A stretch of 61,046 nt of DNA. It comes from a virus. The notes under the pieces were generated by a model, which did not search any database, was not told the DNA's origin, and worked only from the letters and a program-made list of their open reading frames with translations. The position numbers and the translations under genes are program-made. Shown here piece after piece: positions 2,912 through 25,367 of the stretch. Each line of letters starts with the position of its first letter. Position 1 is the first letter of the stretch. The stretch is taken from positions 1 through 61,046 of the IMG/VR virus record IMGVR_UViG_3300042988_000595; one strand, written 5' to 3'.

Positions 2912-3820
2912 TTAGTGAATGGCAATAATGATCGGGATATTGCGGAAAGCCTCAGAGCCGCACGCGTGCCCTTTGGTGGTACAGTCGCCGCACGTACCAT
3001 GGCAAGGAAAAGCTTTTTTACCGTAAGCGCTGCGCAGTGCGGCATTGACTTCTGGCGTGCCGTGTTCGTTACCTTTGACGAGGCGACCAATTGAGACAGC
3101 TACAAATTCACCTCGAGTGATTGGAAGCGCTTTGACATAGGAAACCCTGGCGTCGCTGGCATCATGGCCGGACGAGATATTCAAAAGGTAATTTGATGGC
3201 CAGCTGCAGTCAGGCATGACATTGTAAGCAAGCAAGATGGCGAACGATTTAGAGTAACCGTACGCTTTAACCTGTGGAAATTCCGACAGAAGCGCCATCC
3301 AGTTAGCTACATCCTGCACGCTGGAAAAATCCCCATCCACATATAGACGAAAATCGATCTGAGCTTGGCGCTTGCTGAGCTTGGTTACCATGGCATGGAA
3401 AGCTTGCCGGATTAGGTCAAAATTAAAGCGCATCAAAAAACAATTCGCGAACTGACGACCAAATGCAGAAGGGTAGCGCCATGCGCGGAACGAATAGCAA
3501 AATTTGAGACAGTCTCCGGCGCCGTCACAGGTTACCCCTGCCAGCGTGGAAAACGCGGCGAACGGTAACTTAGAGTTACCATCCAGTTTGATGATGCTAT
3601 AAGGCGACGCGGCCAGCTCGCCGCCCATGTGCTGACGTACCATGCGATGGAGGCGGAAAAATAACTTAACCCATGCAGGCTTTCCGGCAAAGATAGGGTT
3701 TGCAGCTGTGACGCGTACGGCTTTAAGTATTTCTTCCGGCGTGCCAGTCTGGCAGACAAGCGCTAACTCTTGCAGCAAAGAGAATACCGGAGCGTTTGAA
3801 AAGGTTTTCAGTTTGATCAT
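2912..3820 (-). CDS. GP88-like cysteine-cluster phage protein
   Basis: This 302-residue protein carries two cysteine groups. The first is C98-x5-C104-x3-C108 followed by a Tyr (CDGAGDCLKFCYS), the signature I associate with the phage GP88 family. The second is at the C-terminus: C273, C277, C280 and C287. Between them is a mixed alpha/beta core including FRLYVDGDFSSVQDVANW. Two cysteine clusters suggest bound metal or an iron-sulfur centre; some relatives resemble radical-SAM-like folds, but no reaction is known to me. The gene has its own operator-promoter and terminator, a two-gene unit at the edge of the switch region. Family assignment is moderate; function unknown. Confidence 0.65.
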   Translation of the reverse strand: MIKLKTFSNAPVFSLLQELALVCQTGTPEEILKAVRVTAANPIFAGKPAWVKLFFRLHRMVRQHMGGELAASPYSIIKLDGNSKLPFAAFSTLAGVTCDGAGDCLKFCYSFRAWRYPSAFGRQFANCFLMRFNFDLIRQAFHAMVTKLSKRQAQIDFRLYVDGDFSSVQDVANWMALLSEFPQVKAYGYSKSFAILLAYNVMPDCSWPSNYLLNISSGHDASDARVSYVKALPITRGEFVAVSIGRLVKGNEHGTPEVNAALRSAYGKKAFPCHGTCGDCTTKGHACGSEAFRNIPIIIAIH

Positions 3821-5031: not shown

Positions 5032-6678
5032 ATGGACCCAACGAAGATATACACACCATCATTTAAGCTCCCGAGCGGAGGGCAGAGGCGTCTGCATACC
5101 GCTAAGAACATCGACAAGGCGCACGCGCTCAAGACCATATCCGGCACAATCAAGTTCGAGCTGGAGAAGCGTCGGGCCGAGGCGTCGTTGTATGAGTTTG
5201 TGAAGCAAGCGTGGCACGTGGTGGAGCCAGGGGTGGAGTTCTCAGAAGGGTGGCACATCCATACCATCTGTGACCACTTGGAGGCGGTGTCCGAGCGACG
5301 GATCAAGAACCTCATCATCAACATCCCGCCGCGTCACTCTAAGTCAACCATCTGCTCCGTCATCTGGCCCGTCTGGGCGTGGCTCAAGCACCCTCAAGAA
5401 AAGTTCCTGACGGCCTCATACTCAGGCTCACTGTCTGTCCGAGATGCGGTTAAGTCCCGCCGGCTGCTCGAGTCCACCTGGTTCCAGGAGCGGTGGTCAC
5501 ATATATCCTTAAATCGCGACCAGAACACCAAGCAGCGTTACGAGAACAACGACACAGGATACCGCATCGCAGCATCCGTCGGAGGTACTACAACCGGCGA
5601 AGGCGGCTCGACACTCCTCATCGACGACGCGCACGGTGCACAGGACGCTCAGTCAGATACCATGCGGGGGTCAACCCTTGAGTGGCTCGACATGGTGTGG
5701 TCCAGCCGTAAGAACGACCCGAGGACATCATGTTCCGTCGTGATCATGCAGCGCCTGCACGCCATGGACGCCACGGGGCACCTGCTCAAGCAGGGCGGGT
5801 ACGAGCACCTCTGCCTGCCGGCTGAGTATGATGGGGTCAAGCGACGGACGAGCCTTGGTGAGTATGATCCGCGCACGGAGGTGGGTGAGCTACTGTGGCC
5901 CAACCGGTTCGGTAAGACCGAGCTCGATACCTTAAAGAAAGCACTCGGGGCGTACGGTGCGTCAGGTCAGCTGCAGCAGAACCCAGTCCCATCCGGTGGC
6001 GGCATACTTAAAATCGACCATGTCCAGTTGTGGCCATACACCGTTGAGCTTCCTGACTTCCAGTATATCGTCATCAGTCTCGACACGGCGTTCACCGAGA
6101 AGACCAGTGGCGACCCGACCGGCTGTATCGTGTTCGGGGTGTTCACCCACCGTAAGCAGCAGTGCGTCATGGTGCTGGACGCATGGACCGACCACCTCAG
6201 CTACCCAGACCTCAAAGAGCACGTCATGGACGACTGGCGCAGCAGCTACGGTGCCGTCGAGGGTAACCAGCTCAAGAAGGGGCGCAGGGCAGATACACTC
6301 CTCATCGAGGCTAAGGCGTCAGGTCAGTCGCTCCTGCAGGACATGCGGCTCAGTAACATACCGGCGATCAGTTATAACCCAGGTAAGGCCGACAAGGTGC
6401 AGCGTGCCCACATGACCGCCCCCATCCTCGAGTCAGACTGCGTGTACGTCATGGAGAGCAAGAAGCGTCCAGGCGAGCCGATCAGCTGGGCCAAACCGAT
6501 GCTCAAAGAGTGGGAGACGTTCCCTGTTGCCGAGCATGATGAGTATGTAGACTGCTTGACGCAGACCATCATATATCTCAAAGATAGCGGCTGGCTGGAG
6601 GTGCCTGTGCACGAGGACGACGAGCCTGATCGTTACACTGACGACGATCGCAGCAGATCAAACCCTTACGCCCAGTAA
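5032..6678 (+). CDS. terL: terminase large subunit (DNA packaging motor)
   Basis: This 548-residue protein has both terminase domains. The N-terminal ATPase has the Walker A-like segment NIPPRHSKST at residues 97-106 and Walker B LLIDDAHG at about 195-202 (D198, D199). The C-terminal RNase H-like nuclease has D351 in SLDTAF, E426 in LIEAKASG and D503/D507 in EHDEYVD. It drives ATP-dependent DNA translocation into the prohead through the portal and cuts the concatemer. The length is typical. It follows the small subunit by a 77-base gap and has a GAGA-type ribosome site. This is the most secure assignment in the window. Confidence 0.97.
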   Translation: MDPTKIYTPSFKLPSGGQRRLHTAKNIDKAHALKTISGTIKFELEKRRAEASLYEFVKQAWHVVEPGVEFSEGWHIHTICDHLEAVSERRIKNLIINIPPRHSKSTICSVIWPVWAWLKHPQEKFLTASYSGSLSVRDAVKSRRLLESTWFQERWSHISLNRDQNTKQRYENNDTGYRIAASVGGTTTGEGGSTLLIDDAHGAQDAQSDTMRGSTLEWLDMVWSSRKNDPRTSCSVVIMQRLHAMDATGHLLKQGGYEHLCLPAEYDGVKRRTSLGEYDPRTEVGELLWPNRFGKTELDTLKKALGAYGASGQLQQNPVPSGGGILKIDHVQLWPYTVELPDFQYIVISLDTAFTEKTSGDPTGCIVFGVFTHRKQQCVMVLDAWTDHLSYPDLKEHVMDDWRSSYGAVEGNQLKKGRRADTLLIEAKASGQSLLQDMRLSNIPAISYNPGKADKVQRAHMTAPILESDCVYVMESKKRPGEPISWAKPMLKEWETFPVAEHDEYVDCLTQTIIYLKDSGWLEVPVHEDDEPDRYTDDDRSRSNPYAQ

Positions 6679-7477: not shown

Positions 7478-9336
7478 TGGCTGATATTTCCCAATCCATC
7501 CTGCGTCGCCTTCGTGACCTGTATGACAACCCAAGAGCCAACTTGGAGATGCTGAATGACAACATCGACAACTTTAATAAGAACCGTGTTGCCGAGATCA
7601 GACCAGAAGGTGCAGGGTACCGCACACTGACGGATGAAGAACAAGTTCGACGGATCACCCGAGGTCTTCAAGACAATATCGGCGGCGGAGGTATGGGTGC
7701 ACTTGGCATCATCAAGGGTAAAGGTGGCAACTGGCTGACGGGTACGGTGGAAGGCGCGTTGGATAGGTTGAAGAAAAAAGGGATGATAAATAATGTAGAG
7801 CGTGCGTATGGGCCTGAATTTGAAGCGGCTGCTGCTGAGAGATTGAGTACGCCAAATCTACATCCTCGTATTGCAGAAGCTATCAAAGAGGGTTTATCTA
7901 ACAATACACGTCACGCTGCTATAAACAACTGGATTGACGGTTCTCTGACAAAGTACGTTAAGCAAGATATGGCCACTGCGGCTGACCCAGTACGATTGAG
8001 GGCTGAGCGTGTCGCTGCTGCCGCTGAAAAACGCAAAGATGGCGCATTGGCGTTGGCTGAGAAAGAGCGGCGCAGAGCGGAAGCTATTCGTCAAGCGGGT
8101 CCAAAACCGGATATGCCGCCTGGGGCTTGGGAAGGAGCTATCCAAAATGCTGAAGTTAAGGCGCGTAATATGGAGGCGGCGGCACATGACACCTACGAGT
8201 TGGACATTGCAAAGGCTTTGCATGTCAATCCGGAAACGATCAACCCTAATATCGCTGACTCAGCAAATCGCATGCGAGCTACGGCCGGTCCTAACGGAAC
8301 CGTTGTTTCCAAATCACCTCTGGCCAGGGCGTGGGAAGACTTCAGCGATAGCGCTGTAGGAACGCAACCTGTCGGAGTTCGGAAGAACTACGAGTTCCAG
8401 ATGGAAGGTAGTCCATGGATGGCCAATTTGCCGGATGACGCATTGGTTCATCATTTCAGTAATCCGACCGACTCACTCGGCTTTCCGCACATGGTGGACG
8501 AGCTAACCAACGCCTTGAACCCCAACTCAGGTCTTCCGCAGCACCTGCAGCTCACACCCGAACAGATGAAGCAGCTCGGTATGGAGAAGGCTGTTGATCA
8601 CGTTGCAAACATCAACGCTTGGCGTGCTGCACAGCAGGTTGAAGCTACTCGAGCGATGAACGCTCATCCTGCAGTTCGTTCAGTACGCGACTACGCGGAC
8701 AATAATCCGAAGGGTCTGCGTTGGGTTGAAATTAAACCCCAAGATGCTGATGCATGGGAAGCTGCAAACTCTCATTTAGGACCAAGAGAATTTGATGAAC
8801 AGGTAGCTAAGTTCCGTCAAGAACGTATGAAGAACTTGGCGGATCAACTTGAGTACGAGGGTAGTACGATGAACCACTGCGTCGGTGGTTACTGTAACGA
8901 CGTTGCGTCAGGTAGGTCACGTATCTTCTCCTTGCGTGATGCCAAGGGTGAGCCTCATGTGACAATTGAAGCCGCTCCTCGCAAGCAAGATTTCAAGTAT
9001 ACCCTAGAAGAGCTGTTCGACTTACCGAAGGTTACAGAAAGGATACCTGACGACATCGTCCAAATCAAAGGTAAGCAGAACCTCAGACCAAAAGACGAGT
9101 ATATTCCGTTCGTTCAAGACTTCATCCGCAATCACCCAGAGAGTGGTCGTTGGGGCAAGATCGGCGACTTGGATAACACAGGGCTTTATCCGCACAAAGG
9201 TGCGTACCTTACAAAGGAAGAGCTTGGCACATTGGTTGACAAAGCCGACCCAGCAGCGCTGGAAACATGGCAACAGTACATTGTCGACGGCGGATCACCT
9301 TTTGCAGAAGGCGGTCTCGTTGAACCACGCTACTAG
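7477..9336 (+). CDS. PcfJ-like domain protein, virion-associated
   Basis: This 619-residue protein is mostly helical and charged. Around residues 460-540 it has STMNHCVGGYCNDVASG, then RIFSLRDAKGEPHVTIEA, then VQIKGKQNLRP, the signature of the PcfJ-like family known from plasmid and phage proteins. The biochemical role of that domain is unclear. The C-terminus ends FAEGGLVEPRY, a short motif shared with other proteins of this locus. I use the ATG at 7477, which overlaps the previous stop, rather than an upstream codon. Its position between terminase and portal suggests a protein packaged with or ejected from the head, which is inference. Confidence 0.7.
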   Translation: MADISQSILRRLRDLYDNPRANLEMLNDNIDNFNKNRVAEIRPEGAGYRTLTDEEQVRRITRGLQDNIGGGGMGALGIIKGKGGNWLTGTVEGALDRLKKKGMINNVERAYGPEFEAAAAERLSTPNLHPRIAEAIKEGLSNNTRHAAINNWIDGSLTKYVKQDMATAADPVRLRAERVAAAAEKRKDGALALAEKERRRAEAIRQAGPKPDMPPGAWEGAIQNAEVKARNMEAAAHDTYELDIAKALHVNPETINPNIADSANRMRATAGPNGTVVSKSPLARAWEDFSDSAVGTQPVGVRKNYEFQMEGSPWMANLPDDALVHHFSNPTDSLGFPHMVDELTNALNPNSGLPQHLQLTPEQMKQLGMEKAVDHVANINAWRAAQQVEATRAMNAHPAVRSVRDYADNNPKGLRWVEIKPQDADAWEAANSHLGPREFDEQVAKFRQERMKNLADQLEYEGSTMNHCVGGYCNDVASGRSRIFSLRDAKGEPHVTIEAAPRKQDFKYTLEELFDLPKVTERIPDDIVQIKGKQNLRPKDEYIPFVQDFIRNHPESGRWGKIGDLDNTGLYPHKGAYLTKEELGTLVDKADPAALETWQQYIVDGGSPFAEGGLVEPRY

Positions 9337-9372
9337 CAACTTCGATTTCAACGCGTGGGAACCTGAGTAATT

Positions 9373-9383
9373 TCTGCTACAAT
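9373..9383 (+). promoter_or_regulatory. late promoter motif, copy 2
   Basis: TCTGCTACAAT, identical to the copy at 6682-6692, 63 bases before the portal start. Confidence 0.6.
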
Positions 9384-9445
9384 ACCGTTGACTTTAACCA
9401 AAATTATAGCTAAGACTAGCATCAGTCTTACTTTAGGGCCAAACA

Positions 9446-12196
9446 ATGAGCGATTTGAATCCTTTGTCACTTGGTGATACGCCAGAAGACTATATTGAGA
9501 ACGACGACGGTTCCGTAGAGATTCTCGATATGGAAGAGATTCCGACCGACAACAGCGACTTCTACTCGAATCTGGCGGAGACGATTGCCAAATCGACGCT
9601 TACGGACATCGCTCTTGAATACACGGAGCTGGTTGAGAAGGATAAGCGCTCACGCGACAAACGCGACAAGCAGTATGAAGAGGGTCTGCGTCGTACGGGT
9701 CTGGGTGATGATGCCCCAGGTGGTGCCCAGTTCGAAGGTGCGTCCCGTGTCGTTTCCCCCGTCCTGGCCGAAGGTTGTGTTGACTTTGCCGCACGTGCCA
9801 TCAAAGAGTTGTTCCCTGCTCAGGGTCCGGTTCGCACTTATGTCTTCGGTGACGCTGATGTAGACGCCATCGAGCGAGCTGAGCGTAAGCGCCAATACAT
9901 GAACTGGCAGTTGTCAGTTCAGATGCCTGAATATCGTTCTGAGCTTGAGCAGCTTCTGACTCAGTTGCCGCTGGGTGGTTCTCAGTATCAGAAGTTCTGG
10001 TATGACGAGCGCTGCGGCCGTCCGGTCAGTGAGTTCATCCCGATCGATGAAGTGTATCTTCCGTTCTCAGCATCATCCTTCTATACCGCTCAGCGCGTCA
10101 CCCATCGTCAACTGATTACCAAGTACGAGTTCAACCGGCGCACCAAGTCAGGTCTGTACAAAGAGATTGATCTGTCTGTCGATGAAGAGCTGCCGGATCG
10201 CAGCATGGCAGCGGTGGCCAACGACAAGATTGAAGGGCGTTCTGAGGATGCCTACAACGATGACGGCCTGCGTGCTGTGCTCGAGATTTACACTTGGCTC
10301 GACTTGGACGATGACGCAATCACTGGCGGAGAAGGTGCTCCGTATATCTTGACGATCGATGAATACACTGAGGAAGTTCTCGCTGTTTATCGCAACTGGG
10401 AAGAAGGCGACGAGACGTTCGAAAAGCTTGACTGGATTGTTGAGTGGAAATTCATCCCTTGGCGCGGTGCTTACGCAATCGGCCTCCCACATTTGATCGG
10501 TGGCTTGTCTGCAGCTGCTACGGGAGCTCTCCGTGCCCTGATGGACTCAGCACACATCAACAACGCCCCATCGATGTTGAAGTTGAAGACGGGACGTACG
10601 ATCGGCGGTAACACCTCCGTCAATATCACCGAAGTAACAGAAGTAGAAGCACCTCCAGGCTGTAGCGACATTCGTCAGATCGCGATGCCGATGCCGTTCA
10701 ACCAACCGAGCCCAGTGCTGTTCCAACTGCTAGGCTTCTTGACAGACTCTGCTAAGGGCGTCATTGCAACGGCCGATGAGAAACTGAACAGCGTTGGCGA
10801 CCGTACCCCAGTTGGCACCACGATGGCGCTGATTGAGCAAGGTAGCGTTACGTACTCTGCGATCCATGCGCGTCTGCATGAGAGTCAGAAGAAGGCACTC
10901 CAAATCCTTTCTCGCATCAACCGTCAGTGGTTGAGTGACCATGAAGAGATCGAAGACCTGGGCCGTCTGATTATCAGTAAGGATGACTTCCTGCGCTCAG
11001 GCGACATTATCCCTGTGTCCGACCCCGCAATCTTCTCTGAGTCTCAGCGTTTCGCGCAGTCACAATCCTTGATGCAGATGGCCGCTCAGGATGCACAGAA
11101 CCCAAACATTCATTGGAATCAGATTGAAGTTCGTCGTCGCATGCTCAAACAGATGCGAATCGAGGGTATCGATGAGCTGTTGCCGGCACCTAAGAAGCCG
11201 CTGACGTCCGACCCATTGAGTGAGAGTGACGCTGCGATGCAAGGCGTACCGCTTAAGGCGGCTGATCAGCAGGATCACATGGCTCACATCAATGCTCACC
11301 TGACGTTTATTTCGACCCCTTGGGTCATGCAAAACCCGCTTGTTCCACCGCCTGCGATTAGCGCGGTACTGGGTCACATTAACGAGCACATCCTGATGTA
11401 CCAGAAGCAAGTGGTAGCTCAAATGACGCAACAGGTGATGCAGCAGGCTATGATGATGGGTCAACCGTTGAACCCTGAACAAGCTACCGCGATGGCCATT
11501 GGTCAGTCTACCCAAGTGCTGGGTCAGCAGTTGCAGCCGATCATGCAGCAGATCGCTCAAGTTCAACAGACTGTACAACAGCGCACCCCGCCGGCACCGA
11601 TGCCTCCGGAAGTCCAGGCGTCTATCCAGATCGCTAAGATGGATATTGACCGCAAGGCTCAGTACGACCAAGCTACGCTGCAGAACAAGCAGGCAGAGCT
11701 GCAAGCCAAGCAGCAACTAGATGTCGCCACGTTCCAGGCTGAACAAGCCGCTGAGCAGTTCCGTCAGCAGCAGGAAACCACGCGACAGCAGTTCGAACAG
11801 TTTATGGCTGCTCAACAGCAACAAGCCGATGCTCGCGCTGATGAGATGAAGGGTCAGATTCAACTGCTGATCAATGAGCAGGATAACAAGCAGAAGCAGA
11901 TGACTGAGTTGTTAAAGAACCATGAGGACAACCAGACTAACCTGTTCATCGCTCAGATGAAGGAGCAGCTGGCCAGCTTCCAGCAACAGCCGGCCGTTGA
12001 ACCGAGCGGTCCTGACACCAGTGCGCAACTGCAGCAGGTTCAGACGATGCTCGAGCAATTGAGCAAGCAGCAAACCAACGACTCTTTATCTGCTATAATG
12101 CAGGGGCTTCAAGCAACTGTTGAGCACCTCGGTAAGCCGAAGATGATTGTGCGAGACGGTTCTGGTAAAGCGATCGGTGTACGTGCTGCAGAATGA
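9446..12196 (+). CDS. portal protein, SU10-like, with long Gln-rich tail
   Basis: This is a 916-residue protein. The N-terminal 550 residues have the portal pattern seen in SU10-like podoviruses: a charged helix, GGAQFEGASRVVSPVLAEG near residue 90, an aromatic mixed region and a long helix. The C-terminal part (about 640-900) is a Gln/Ala-rich helical barrel or coiled coil with many QQ pairs. The dodecameric portal forms the head-tail vertex and the channel for packaging and ejection. The length exceeds the usual 500-750 residues because of the Gln-rich tail, as in P22-type portals with a barrel. A late promoter motif lies upstream. Confidence 0.9.
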   Translation: MSDLNPLSLGDTPEDYIENDDGSVEILDMEEIPTDNSDFYSNLAETIAKSTLTDIALEYTELVEKDKRSRDKRDKQYEEGLRRTGLGDDAPGGAQFEGASRVVSPVLAEGCVDFAARAIKELFPAQGPVRTYVFGDADVDAIERAERKRQYMNWQLSVQMPEYRSELEQLLTQLPLGGSQYQKFWYDERCGRPVSEFIPIDEVYLPFSASSFYTAQRVTHRQLITKYEFNRRTKSGLYKEIDLSVDEELPDRSMAAVANDKIEGRSEDAYNDDGLRAVLEIYTWLDLDDDAITGGEGAPYILTIDEYTEEVLAVYRNWEEGDETFEKLDWIVEWKFIPWRGAYAIGLPHLIGGLSAAATGALRALMDSAHINNAPSMLKLKTGRTIGGNTSVNITEVTEVEAPPGCSDIRQIAMPMPFNQPSPVLFQLLGFLTDSAKGVIATADEKLNSVGDRTPVGTTMALIEQGSVTYSAIHARLHESQKKALQILSRINRQWLSDHEEIEDLGRLIISKDDFLRSGDIIPVSDPAIFSESQRFAQSQSLMQMAAQDAQNPNIHWNQIEVRRRMLKQMRIEGIDELLPAPKKPLTSDPLSESDAAMQGVPLKAADQQDHMAHINAHLTFISTPWVMQNPLVPPPAISAVLGHINEHILMYQKQVVAQMTQQVMQQAMMMGQPLNPEQATAMAIGQSTQVLGQQLQPIMQQIAQVQQTVQQRTPPAPMPPEVQASIQIAKMDIDRKAQYDQATLQNKQAELQAKQQLDVATFQAEQAAEQFRQQQETTRQQFEQFMAAQQQQADARADEMKGQIQLLINEQDNKQKQMTELLKNHEDNQTNLFIAQMKEQLASFQQQPAVEPSGPDTSAQLQQVQTMLEQLSKQQTNDSLSAIMQGLQATVEHLGKPKMIVRDGSGKAIGVRAAE
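12089..12099 (+). promoter_or_regulatory. late promoter motif, copy 3
   Basis: TCTGCTATAAT, with a perfect TATAAT preceded by TGC. It lies inside the end of the portal gene, 94 bases before the lysis block, and probably gives that block its own transcript. Confidence 0.6.
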
Positions 12197-18814: not shown

Positions 18815-18846
18815 CATTAGAATATGTCCATGCTTAGCTCATCCGG
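18803..18846 (+). promoter_or_regulatory. nested hairpin over a homing endonuclease start codon
   Basis: CCGGATGA (18803-18810) pairs with TCATCCGG (18839-18846). Inside, GACAT (18813-18817) pairs with ATGTC (18824-18828), and the ATG of the GIY-YIG gene is part of that inner stem. In mRNA read through from upstream the start codon would be buried. Confidence 0.6.
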
Positions 18847-19567
18847 TATCTATGTGATAACAAATCTAGTGAACGGTAAGCGCTATTACGGTAGCGCTGC
18901 CAAGTTCAGCACTAGGTTTTCTGTTCACAAGTATTACTTAAACAAAGGGACTAGCCGATCTACTAAGCTGCAAAACGCTTGGAATAAATACGGTGAGTCA
19001 TCGTTTGAATTCACTCCAATGTTTGTATGCGCCAAGAGCGACTTGCTTATGTATGAGCAGCGTGTTCTCGATGCGTTTGATGCAGTTAATACTGGGTACA
19101 ACATATGCTCAACGGCTGGTAGTGCGCTTGGAGTTAAGCGTCGTCCTGAGTCGATTGCAAAAACGCGAGCTGCACACATAGGTAGGAAGTACCCTGAAGA
19201 TGTACGCAAGAGAATGGGTGCTGCTAATCTTGGGAAGAAACTGTCTGAAGATCATGTCGCAAAAGTTGTTGCGCGAACGAAGGGCTTGAAACGTGATGAT
19301 GAGTTTCGTCGCAAGCTATCAGAGCGCAGCAAAGGTAAGCGGCACTCTGATGAAACAAAGGAAAAGCAGCGTCAAGCGGCGTTAAACAGAGACTCAGCTA
19401 GAGGCGAAAAAAATGTGAACGCAAAAATGAATCCTGATCGCGTAAGACACATTCGTGATTTGCATTCAAAAGGAGTCGCATTGACAGAAATCGGTCGAGA
19501 GGTCGGTCTACATCCGTCAACGGTTGCTGATATTGCATACCGCAAAACTTGGAGGCATGTGGTATGA
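18824..19567 (+). CDS. GIY-YIG homing endonuclease with NUMOD motifs
   Basis: This 247-residue protein has the N-terminal GIY-YIG nuclease motif SGIYVITNLVNGKRYYGSA (residues about 7-25), helical linkers with NUMOD3-like repeats (RPESIAKTRAAHIGRKYPED, RKLSERSKGKRHSDETKEKQ) and a C-terminal helix-turn-helix (GVALTEIGREVGLHPSTVAD) for DNA recognition. It is a free-standing mobile gene that cuts phage DNA lacking it. It sits between two fibre-region genes without disrupting them, and the following gene overlaps its stop. Its start lies in a hairpin, which should limit early translation. Confidence 0.92.
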   Translation: MSMLSSSGIYVITNLVNGKRYYGSAAKFSTRFSVHKYYLNKGTSRSTKLQNAWNKYGESSFEFTPMFVCAKSDLLMYEQRVLDAFDAVNTGYNICSTAGSALGVKRRPESIAKTRAAHIGRKYPEDVRKRMGAANLGKKLSEDHVAKVVARTKGLKRDDEFRRKLSERSKGKRHSDETKEKQRQAALNRDSARGEKNVNAKMNPDRVRHIRDLHSKGVALTEIGREVGLHPSTVADIAYRKTWRHVV

Positions 19568-20867: not shown

Positions 20868-21040
20868 TTGCTCAAGTAATCAAACTCATTAAGGATGAAC
20901 AGCGCCGAGTTGCTGACGCTTCGGTGGCCTATCGACCACTATCGCACGATGAATATATCGAGCAGGTTGGTAAGTACCGTGGTCTGCAGGAAGCGCTGGA
21001 CATCATTGATGAAGTCCTCAAAGGAAACGAAGAGGATTAA
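20864..21040 (+). CDS. small helical protein, 58 aa
   Basis: The frame translates as MIAQVIKLIKDEQRRVADAS and ends IIDEVLKGNEED. It is almost entirely helical and charged, like small phage proteins that bridge or chaperone virion parts. It overlaps the upstream stop by ATGA and ends eight bases before the structured RNA element at 21048-21103. Confidence 0.65.
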   Translation: MIAQVIKLIKDEQRRVADASVAYRPLSHDEYIEQVGKYRGLQEALDIIDEVLKGNEED

Positions 21041-21047
21041 GATTTAG

Positions 21048-21103
21048 CCGTCCCACTCTCCGACGGGGGAGGAAGTTTGCCTCAGACTTCACGGGACGGT
21101 TTT
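21048..21103 (+). ncRNA. three-way-junction RNA element, terminator-like
   Basis: CCGTCCC (21048-21054) pairs with GGGACGG (21093-21099), followed by TTTT. Inside the closing stem are two hairpins: CTCTCC with GGGGAG around a GACG loop, and GAAGT with ACTTC around a nine-base loop. The three helices fill nearly the whole element. It lies between the 58-residue gene and the GroES-like gene, so it could be a terminator or attenuator, a processed small RNA or a protein-binding leader. Confidence 0.6.
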
Positions 21104-21128
21104 CCAGAGGCTACATTAGGAGAATCGT

Positions 21129-21536
21129 ATGATTCCTGCTTCAACGCTACAGGATGCATTTCCTGAAGTGTCCCCAGGTGTGTACCCCATGGGTGCTCGC
21201 GTTCTCGTTCAGTTACGCACTGTTCGAGAGAAGACTGCCAGCGGTATCGTGCTAGTCGAAGACACCAAGGTCTTCAATAAATCCACCACGCAGATGGCCA
21301 AAGTTGTTTGGCTGGGTCCGATCGCCTATCGCAATCGCGATAACGGTAATCAGTGGCCAGAGGGTGTGTGGTGCCGCCCAGGTGAGTACGTTCGTATCCC
21401 TAAGTTTGGCGGGGACCGTTTCGAGCGGAAAATCCCAGGGACCGAAGATACCGCTGTATTTTGTATTTTCTCAGACCACGAGATCATCGCTAAGGTTGAC
21501 CCTGACGCGTATGAAGAACTCGATGAAATTCTTTAA
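21129..21536 (+). CDS. GroES-like co-chaperonin
   Basis: This 135-residue protein matches the Cpn10/GroES pattern: GARVLVQLRTVREKTASGIV at residues about 22-41 (strand, mobile-loop region with the T-x-S-G-I-V motif), then a barrel with PGEYVRIPKFGG and a C-terminal strand with FSDHEIIAKV. Phage co-chaperonins such as T4 gp31 work with host GroEL to fold the major capsid protein. Its position directly before scaffold and capsid genes supports that job. AGGAGAA is a good ribosome site, and a structured RNA element lies 25 bases upstream. Confidence 0.88.
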   Translation: MIPASTLQDAFPEVSPGVYPMGARVLVQLRTVREKTASGIVLVEDTKVFNKSTTQMAKVVWLGPIAYRNRDNGNQWPEGVWCRPGEYVRIPKFGGDRFERKIPGTEDTAVFCIFSDHEIIAKVDPDAYEELDEIL

Positions 21537-24589: not shown

Positions 24590-24624
24590 AATTACTAGAC
24601 ATTCTGTCCAGTAAGTGATAGAGT

Positions 24625-24655
24625 CCCCTTCACGTTAACTCTGAAGGGGATTTTT
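24625..24655 (+). terminator. terminator that also hides the next ribosome site
   Basis: CCCCTTCA (24625-24632) pairs with TGAAGGGG (24642-24649) around a nine-base loop, followed by A and five T residues. It ends the capsid transcript. The right arm AAGGGGA is also the only plausible ribosome site of the HNH gene that starts at 24657. Confidence 0.85.
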
Positions 24656-24656
24656 A

Positions 24657-25367
24657 ATGTCCAACATACCTGTCGGTAAAAAATGCTGCATTCATAATTG
24701 CACCAAGATTGCAGTATCAAAAGGTTTGTGCGATACACATCGAAAACGCGTCCAAAGGCACGGTAGTGCTGATGATTCTTTCGGACTTCAAAAGATAGCG
24801 GGTTATGCAAAAATAACGTCTCACCCGTTATACCAGTCATGGAGAAATATGGAGCGCACAGATTCTGGTGCGGCGTTATCTGAACGGTGGAAGAAATTTT
24901 CAAATTTTGTAGAAGATATTGGTTCGAAGCCTGATGGAGATTTCAATCTCGCACGGGTTGATACCACCAAACCTTTTTCTGCAGACAACTGTTATTGGAA
25001 ACCCATTACTCGTGGTACACCAGGGGCTGAACACAAAAAAGTTTATATGCGAGAATGGCAGCGCAATGCGAGATTAAATAACCCTGACTATCATAGAAAC
25101 TCGAATTTGAAGAAGACATACGGTATCACCTTAGATGATTACAACCGTATGCTATCCGAGCAAAATGGGTTGTGCAAAATATGTGGTAGACCAGAGAGAC
25201 GGGTTACAAGGGACGGCAAAGTTATGAATCTACACGTAGACCACTGCCATTCTTCAAACAAAGTGCGCGGCCTTCTGTGTCACCATTGCAATGTAGCACT
25301 TGGATCATTCGACGACTCGATTGAACTTTTACAGTCTGCCATCGATTACTTGAACAAAAACACCTAG
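24657..25367 (+). CDS. homing endonuclease, recombination endonuclease VII-like HNH
   Basis: This 236-residue protein has an N-terminal zinc-finger-like segment (CCIHNCTKIAVSKGLCDTH, residues about 9-27), a middle helical part and a C-terminal endonuclease VII/HNH core from about residue 160: YGITLDDYNRMLSEQNGLCK, ICGRPERR, then HVDHCHSSNKVRGLLC, HHCNVALG. The four cysteines bind zinc, and DHCH with the Asn makes the active site. It is inserted between capsid and the next structural gene as a free-standing mobile gene. Codon use is AT-richer than its neighbours, consistent with transfer. Its ribosome site lies in the terminator stem. Confidence 0.9.
   Translation: MSNIPVGKKCCIHNCTKIAVSKGLCDTHRKRVQRHGSADDSFGLQKIAGYAKITSHPLYQSWRNMERTDSGAALSERWKKFSNFVEDIGSKPDGDFNLARVDTTKPFSADNCYWKPITRGTPGAEHKKVYMREWQRNARLNNPDYHRNSNLKKTYGITLDDYNRMLSEQNGLCKICGRPERRVTRDGKVMNLHVDHCHSSNKVRGLLCHHCNVALGSFDDSIELLQSAIDYLNKNT

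Follow-up and report, generated by a model that had tools for sequence, protein, structure and literature searches.

Genomic Context and Secondary Structure

The window, i.e., the complete stretch of 61,046 nucleotides that was analyzed (IMG/VR record IMGVR_UViG_3300042988_000595, positions 1 to 61,046), stems from an uncultured virus and carries terminase and portal genes as well as major head genes. A small open reading frame ending at position 21040 is followed by a gene for a GroES-like co-chaperonin starting at position 21129, and a structured element is located between the two. The major capsid gene lies 2.6 kb downstream of the element, while the terminase gene (5032-6678) is found at a distance of about 14 kb. 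The segment from groES to the capsid gene is flanked by GIY-YIG and endonuclease VII-like genes (18824-19567 and 24657-25367), and the related contig L001 likewise carries an endonuclease-like open reading frame (8991-9686) after its capsid gene.

The earlier note had proposed a three-way-junction RNA at positions 21048-21103, and the plus strand of this segment folds exactly as described (-29.8 kcal/mol, z -4.4), with none of 200 dinucleotide shuffles reaching an equal energy and 91% of the ensemble adopting the same three-way-junction structure. The fold of the opposite strand is far weaker (z -1.8). When both strands of the 61-kb record were scanned in 60-nt windows with 15-nt steps, complemented by two windows positioned on the element itself, the lowest free energy in the record (-32.3) was obtained at this place; lower z-scores occurred at a few other places in the same scan. 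A very stable hairpin (z -7.5) is located at 2056-2115 on the plus strand, antisense to an open reading frame on the minus strand (1595-2209).

The folded core consists of a 7-bp stem (CCGTCCC/GGGACGG) and the hairpins CTCTCC-GACG-GGGGAG and GAAGTTTG-CCT-CAGACTTC. The 7-bp closing stem noted earlier thus forms, but the full stem P1 comprises nine pairs including an outer G-U and an A-U pair (21046-21054 with 21093-21101). The T-run reported to follow the stem is present as TTTT only; its first two residues are part of the extended P1, and the run is neither conserved nor part of the conserved element. Absent from the structure in the earlier note is a pseudoknot in which the P3 loop (21079-21083) pairs with a downstream segment (21107-21111). 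The features of the locus are:

21046-21054, plus strand: P1 5' strand AGCCGTCCC, from the fold; partner 21093-21101, six of nine pairs covary
21055, plus strand: J1/2, a single A, identical in 9/9 homologues
21056-21071, plus strand: P2 hairpin CTCTCC-GACG-GGGGAG, from fold and covariation; GACG loop in 7/9 homologues
21072-21090, plus strand: P3 hairpin GAAGTT ... GACTTC with a 7-nt loop containing a pseudoknot strand, from the covariation alignment
21079-21083, plus strand: pseudoknot 5' strand GCCTC in the P3 loop; double-sided changes in 6/6 aligned pseudoknot pairs
21091-21092, plus strand: J3/1, AC in 7/9 homologues, AT in one and GG in one
21093-21101, plus strand: P1 3' strand GGGACGGTT, from fold and covariation
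21107-21111, plus strand: pseudoknot 3' strand GAGGC just 5' of the Shine-Dalgarno sequence, from complementarity and covariation
21112-21118, plus strand: A/U-rich spacer from pseudoknot to Shine-Dalgarno sequence, 7 nt here and 2-7 nt in homologues
21119-21136, plus strand: Shine-Dalgarno sequence GGAG (from 21119) and start region GGAGAATCGTATGATTCC; GGAGAATCG identical in 9/9 homologues
21129-21536, plus strand: GroES-like co-chaperonin gene (Pfam Cpn10, PF00166, E 1.4e-8)

Homologues and Covariation

Related contigs were collected with GroES and major-capsid queries. In L001, whose GroES is 76% identical, the same junction is present with six of 22 pairs altered on both sides. A first covariance model built from these two sequences, the window and L001, matched L074, L059/L060, L063, L061 and L068 with E values from 1e-15 to 4e-8, and further junction matches were obtained in L157 and L164 (E 2e-4 for the latter, which a second model recovered as well). 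In total, nine distinct homologues were found, all on metagenomic contigs from one group of related uncultured phages, with one copy per record searched and none elsewhere in those records. The second covariance model, built on all nine, revealed no further homologues among the relatives tested, and neither model found the element in more distant GroES relatives. It is absent from the groES leaders of Caulobacter phage RW and MW202545, and a distant blastn comparison with cultured phages yielded no DNA relatives.

Covariation was assessed on a hand-built structural alignment in which gaps were entered as N and whose columns, those of the P3 loop and the linkers aside, are mostly gap-free. In this alignment, which was fitted to the structure and thereby favors it, 97.9% of the cells are paired and 20 of 27 pairs show double-sided changes (P1 6/9, P2 4/6, P3 4/6, pseudoknot 6/6). 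The covariation score amounts to 0.781 as compared to 0.223 in shuffles, none of 500 reaching the observed value, and does not exceed 0.13 once the partners are slid. The compensatory changes that the earlier note had named as a check are found in abundance in the relatives, and its view that the structure is more than a simple terminator holds with regard to the highly ordered fold, the extensive covariation and the absence of a U-run from relatives. With the outermost, optional pair excluded, exceptions to Watson-Crick pairing consist of 11 G-U pairs versus a single A-C mismatch, as would be expected if selection acts on the groES-sense RNA. A DNA-only reading as a hairpin DNA site is disfavored by the G-U pairs on the groES strand.

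While the helix sequences vary freely across the homologues, the unpaired positions are mostly variable too; conserved among them are the J1/2 A and the first G of the P2 loop (each 9/9) as well as the AC of J3/1 (7/9). On the GroES tree, in which many forks are unresolved, presence and absence of the element require three changes versus a mean of 7.3 for shuffled states, so that judged by these sequences its distribution is clustered, yet not a clean clade. Relatives whose GroES is 68-74% identical do not have the element, which is thus dispensable at that distance. Taken together, the comparisons provide good support for a new structured RNA motif conserved in one group of related phages, for which any function is put forward as a proposal only.

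A Pseudoknot Next to the Shine-Dalgarno Sequence

The pseudoknot was recognized by reading the homologues side by side, as the P3 loop complements the segment between P1 and the Shine-Dalgarno sequence. The respective loop and downstream strands are GCCTC/GAGGC in the window, GTCTCC/GGAGAC in L001, L074 and L157, GTCTTC/GGAGAC in L063, GCTCCA/TGGAGC in L059, TGCCCC/GGGGCA in L061, GTCTGG/CCAGAC in L068 and CCCAGA/TCTGGG in L164. Complementarity is present in every homologue, and the eight tested surpass shuffled downstream segments with p values from 0.0002 to 0.05. The combined value of about 1e-14 for these eight, derived from mononucleotide shuffles, is indicative because the sequences are related and kinship was left uncorrected. 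On average, the pairs of loop and downstream strands from the same homologue outscore cross-pairs between homologues. The geometry of the pseudoknot is sound: the loop strand leads directly into the 3' strand of P3, and 0-3 nt lie between it and the 5' strand of this hairpin, a layout typical of H-type pseudoknots with coaxial stems. The possibility that the P3 loop pairs with the Shine-Dalgarno sequence instead was considered and rejected, as this match is not kept in L061 and L068. In L068, the downstream strand CCAGAC occurs as a tandem duplicate (3458-3470), making two alternative pseudoknot pairings possible.

In the window, P1 starts 5 nt past the stop codon of the preceding open reading frame; in the homologues, it follows 0-5 nt after the preceding gene. 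Every homologue has the element directly upstream of groES, just before its Shine-Dalgarno sequence. Spacers differ little in length, the linker measuring 4-8 nt and the A/U-rich stretch from the pseudoknot to the Shine-Dalgarno sequence 2-7 nt. A change of the preceding gene leaves this position unmoved: in L157, a tRNA-Thr (TGT) gene at 10069-10144 replaces the usual upstream open reading frame and ends 5 nt before P1. GGAGAATCG, shared by the nine homologues and by L160, can pair with ATGATTCC of the start to give a small hairpin whose loop holds the start codon; L068 retains a hairpin despite an altered codon. As the predicted accessibility of the groES Shine-Dalgarno sequence is ordinary among the genes of this phage, assignment of this predicted start-site hairpin to the element is suggestive only.

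In relatives without the junction, different structures occupy the same groES start. L160, L161, L178 and L179 feature one long hairpin, GGCTGCGGCGA...TCGTCGCAGCC, instead (around 2930-3000). Its loop GGTCCCG partly complements CGGGCC further downstream, ahead of a start site with the same GGAGAATCG, and the two may form a simpler pseudoknot. L002-L012, L078 and L080 do not have the junction either, and most of them contain a short hairpin (e.g., AACTCT...AGAGTT) enclosing the groES Shine-Dalgarno sequence, which is possibly temperature- or coupling-dependent.

Comparison With Established RNA Families

At gathering thresholds, no Rfam family matched in the window. None of the aptamer models reached its curated cut-off (fluoride, 8.5 bits versus 34), and xrRNA families gave no match at E<=10 in either the window or L001. 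EGFOA RNA (RF02955) was rejected with 15.4 bits in the window versus a cut-off of 37.7 and no match in L001. A role in packaging, raised in the earlier note, is not borne out, with the terminase gene about 14 kb distant and no Rfam match to a phi29-type packaging RNA, whereas the regulatory role suggested there fits the placement directly before the groES start.

As in flavivirus-type xrRNAs, a P1-P2-P3 three-way junction is combined with pairing of the P3 loop downstream of P1. On the other hand, the flanks inspected contain no conserved upstream complement of the J3/1 AC, and since pairing of the 5' end is not conserved, we do not file the element as an xrRNA. In common with the T4 gene 32-type operator, the start site is preceded by a pseudoknot, and the sequence between the two is A/U-rich. 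The intrinsic terminator was dismissed: the T-run is not conserved, the U-run is missing in relatives and the site was not chosen by the terminator scan. That scan picked, on the minus strand, terminator-like inverted repeats right after the major capsid gene (24592-24652), a region that also gave weak covariance-model matches on both strands.

Possible Functions

Because of its fixed placement relative to the groES start, we favor the element as a cis-acting translation-initiation element of groES, a reading whose chances appear evenly balanced. As shown by comparison of the homologues, the phage mRNA folds as a P1/P2/P3 junction locked by the P3-loop pseudoknot 2-7 nt before the Shine-Dalgarno sequence. 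This knot would set translation initiation of groES by giving the sequence ahead of the start site a defined fold and by keeping groES apart from the translation of the gene before it, and the A/U-rich spacer together with the weak start-site hairpin would be left as a controlled entry point. Control could be exerted by the ribosome or, similar to the T4 gene 32 operator, by a phage or host protein on the knot. Against initiation control stand the unexceptional accessibility of the groES Shine-Dalgarno sequence and the restriction of the element to one phage group; moreover, an element that merely filled the intercistronic gap would likewise end up adjacent to the start site.

The same position next to the preceding gene, whichever gene that is, could mark a boundary of mRNA stability or processing, where the knot blocks 5' or 3' nucleases and the segment from GroES to the major capsid gene outlives the upstream mRNA. 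Such a boundary is the main alternative, though clearly the less probable reading. It is in line with the capsid protein gene 2.6 kb downstream and with L157, where tRNA processing would put the element near a fresh 5' end, and has a precedent in the T4 gene 32 mRNA, the most stable T4 mRNA, which combines a leader pseudoknot with an RNase E cut at -71 (PMC3014915); yet a distance of 2-7 nt to the Shine-Dalgarno sequence is not required of a stability element. A mechanical block of a 5'-3' exonuclease such as RNase J, of the sort imposed by flavivirus xrRNAs, appears improbable: the connectivity of three-way junction and P3 loop to downstream segment is the same (L3-S4), and RNase J1 from bacteria can be halted in vitro by a flavivirus xrRNA (PMC5760640), but inspection of the flanks shows no consistent upstream GU with which the J3/1 AC could pair, and the Rfam xrRNA models fail to match the window and L001 at E<=10. 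The related idea of a DNA-phage counterpart of exonuclease-resistant RNAs, independent of those of flaviviruses and placed at the border between weakly and strongly expressed head genes, is an equally slim prospect; if nuclease blocking were true, the xrRNA design would not be limited to RNA viruses.

Location of a pseudoknot beside the Shine-Dalgarno sequence is a common design of translational riboswitches and is likewise found here. A ligand-binding riboswitch regulating groES is nevertheless quite improbable, given that only the J1/2 A and the first G of the P2 loop are invariant among the unpaired positions, too few for a conserved ligand-binding core, and that Rfam offers no match. The compact fold and the neighboring tRNA in L157 would suit a small RNA that is released from the mRNA and acts on its own, an option we consider highly unlikely as the pseudoknot strand and the position tie the element to the groES start, each record holds one copy, and the element fills the intercistronic gap, so that a promoter of its own would not fit. 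Although a GC-rich stem followed by TTTT is present in the window, an intrinsic terminator or a chance structure is extremely unlikely in view of the relatives without U-run, the terminator scan that missed the site and the extensive covariation, by which a chance structure can be regarded as already refuted. Most likely, we are dealing with a previously uncatalogued RNA element that controls translation of groES or keeps its message intact.

Relation to Known Systems

To our knowledge, mRNA leaders that contain a pseudoknot and show a clear covariation signature have seldom been reported for tailed phages. The leader of rpsB, encoding ribosomal protein S2, contains a three-stem junction with a pseudoknot to a 3' extension past P1, before the gene start (PMC2704228). 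It precedes a different gene, and its pseudoknot uses the J2-3 junction, whereas the P3 hairpin loop is used in the phage element. EGFOA aligns weakly over its full length with the window, through a hairpin and a long-range helix after it; the CCGTC common to both is not conserved among the homologues of the element. Pseudomon-groES (RF01721), a candidate RNA named for groES (PMC2864571), belongs to Pseudomonas and did not match the window in Rfam scans. In flavivirus xrRNAs, a three-way junction is accompanied by pairing of the L3 loop with the downstream S4 and of the 5' end with the junction (PMC5760640). The phage element differs in that it stems from a DNA phage, is intercistronic, lies beside a start site and does not have conserved 5'-end pairing, and any nuclease block is putative.

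The closest functional model is the leader of T4 gene 32, which shares the arrangement of intercistronic pseudoknot, A/U-rich segment and start site. There, a pseudoknot starting at about -67 with A/U-rich sequence on its 3' side serves as autogenous translational operator (PMC3014915, PMC535899), while P1 of the element described here starts at -83. The T4 structure, about 28 nt long, is a simple H-type pseudoknot, whereas the phage knot bears a three-way junction, is located much nearer to the Shine-Dalgarno sequence and precedes a gene for a GroES-like co-chaperonin. The element therefore adds a differently built pseudoknotted leader, situated before a chaperonin gene in the head module and available with nine homologues and exact coordinates.
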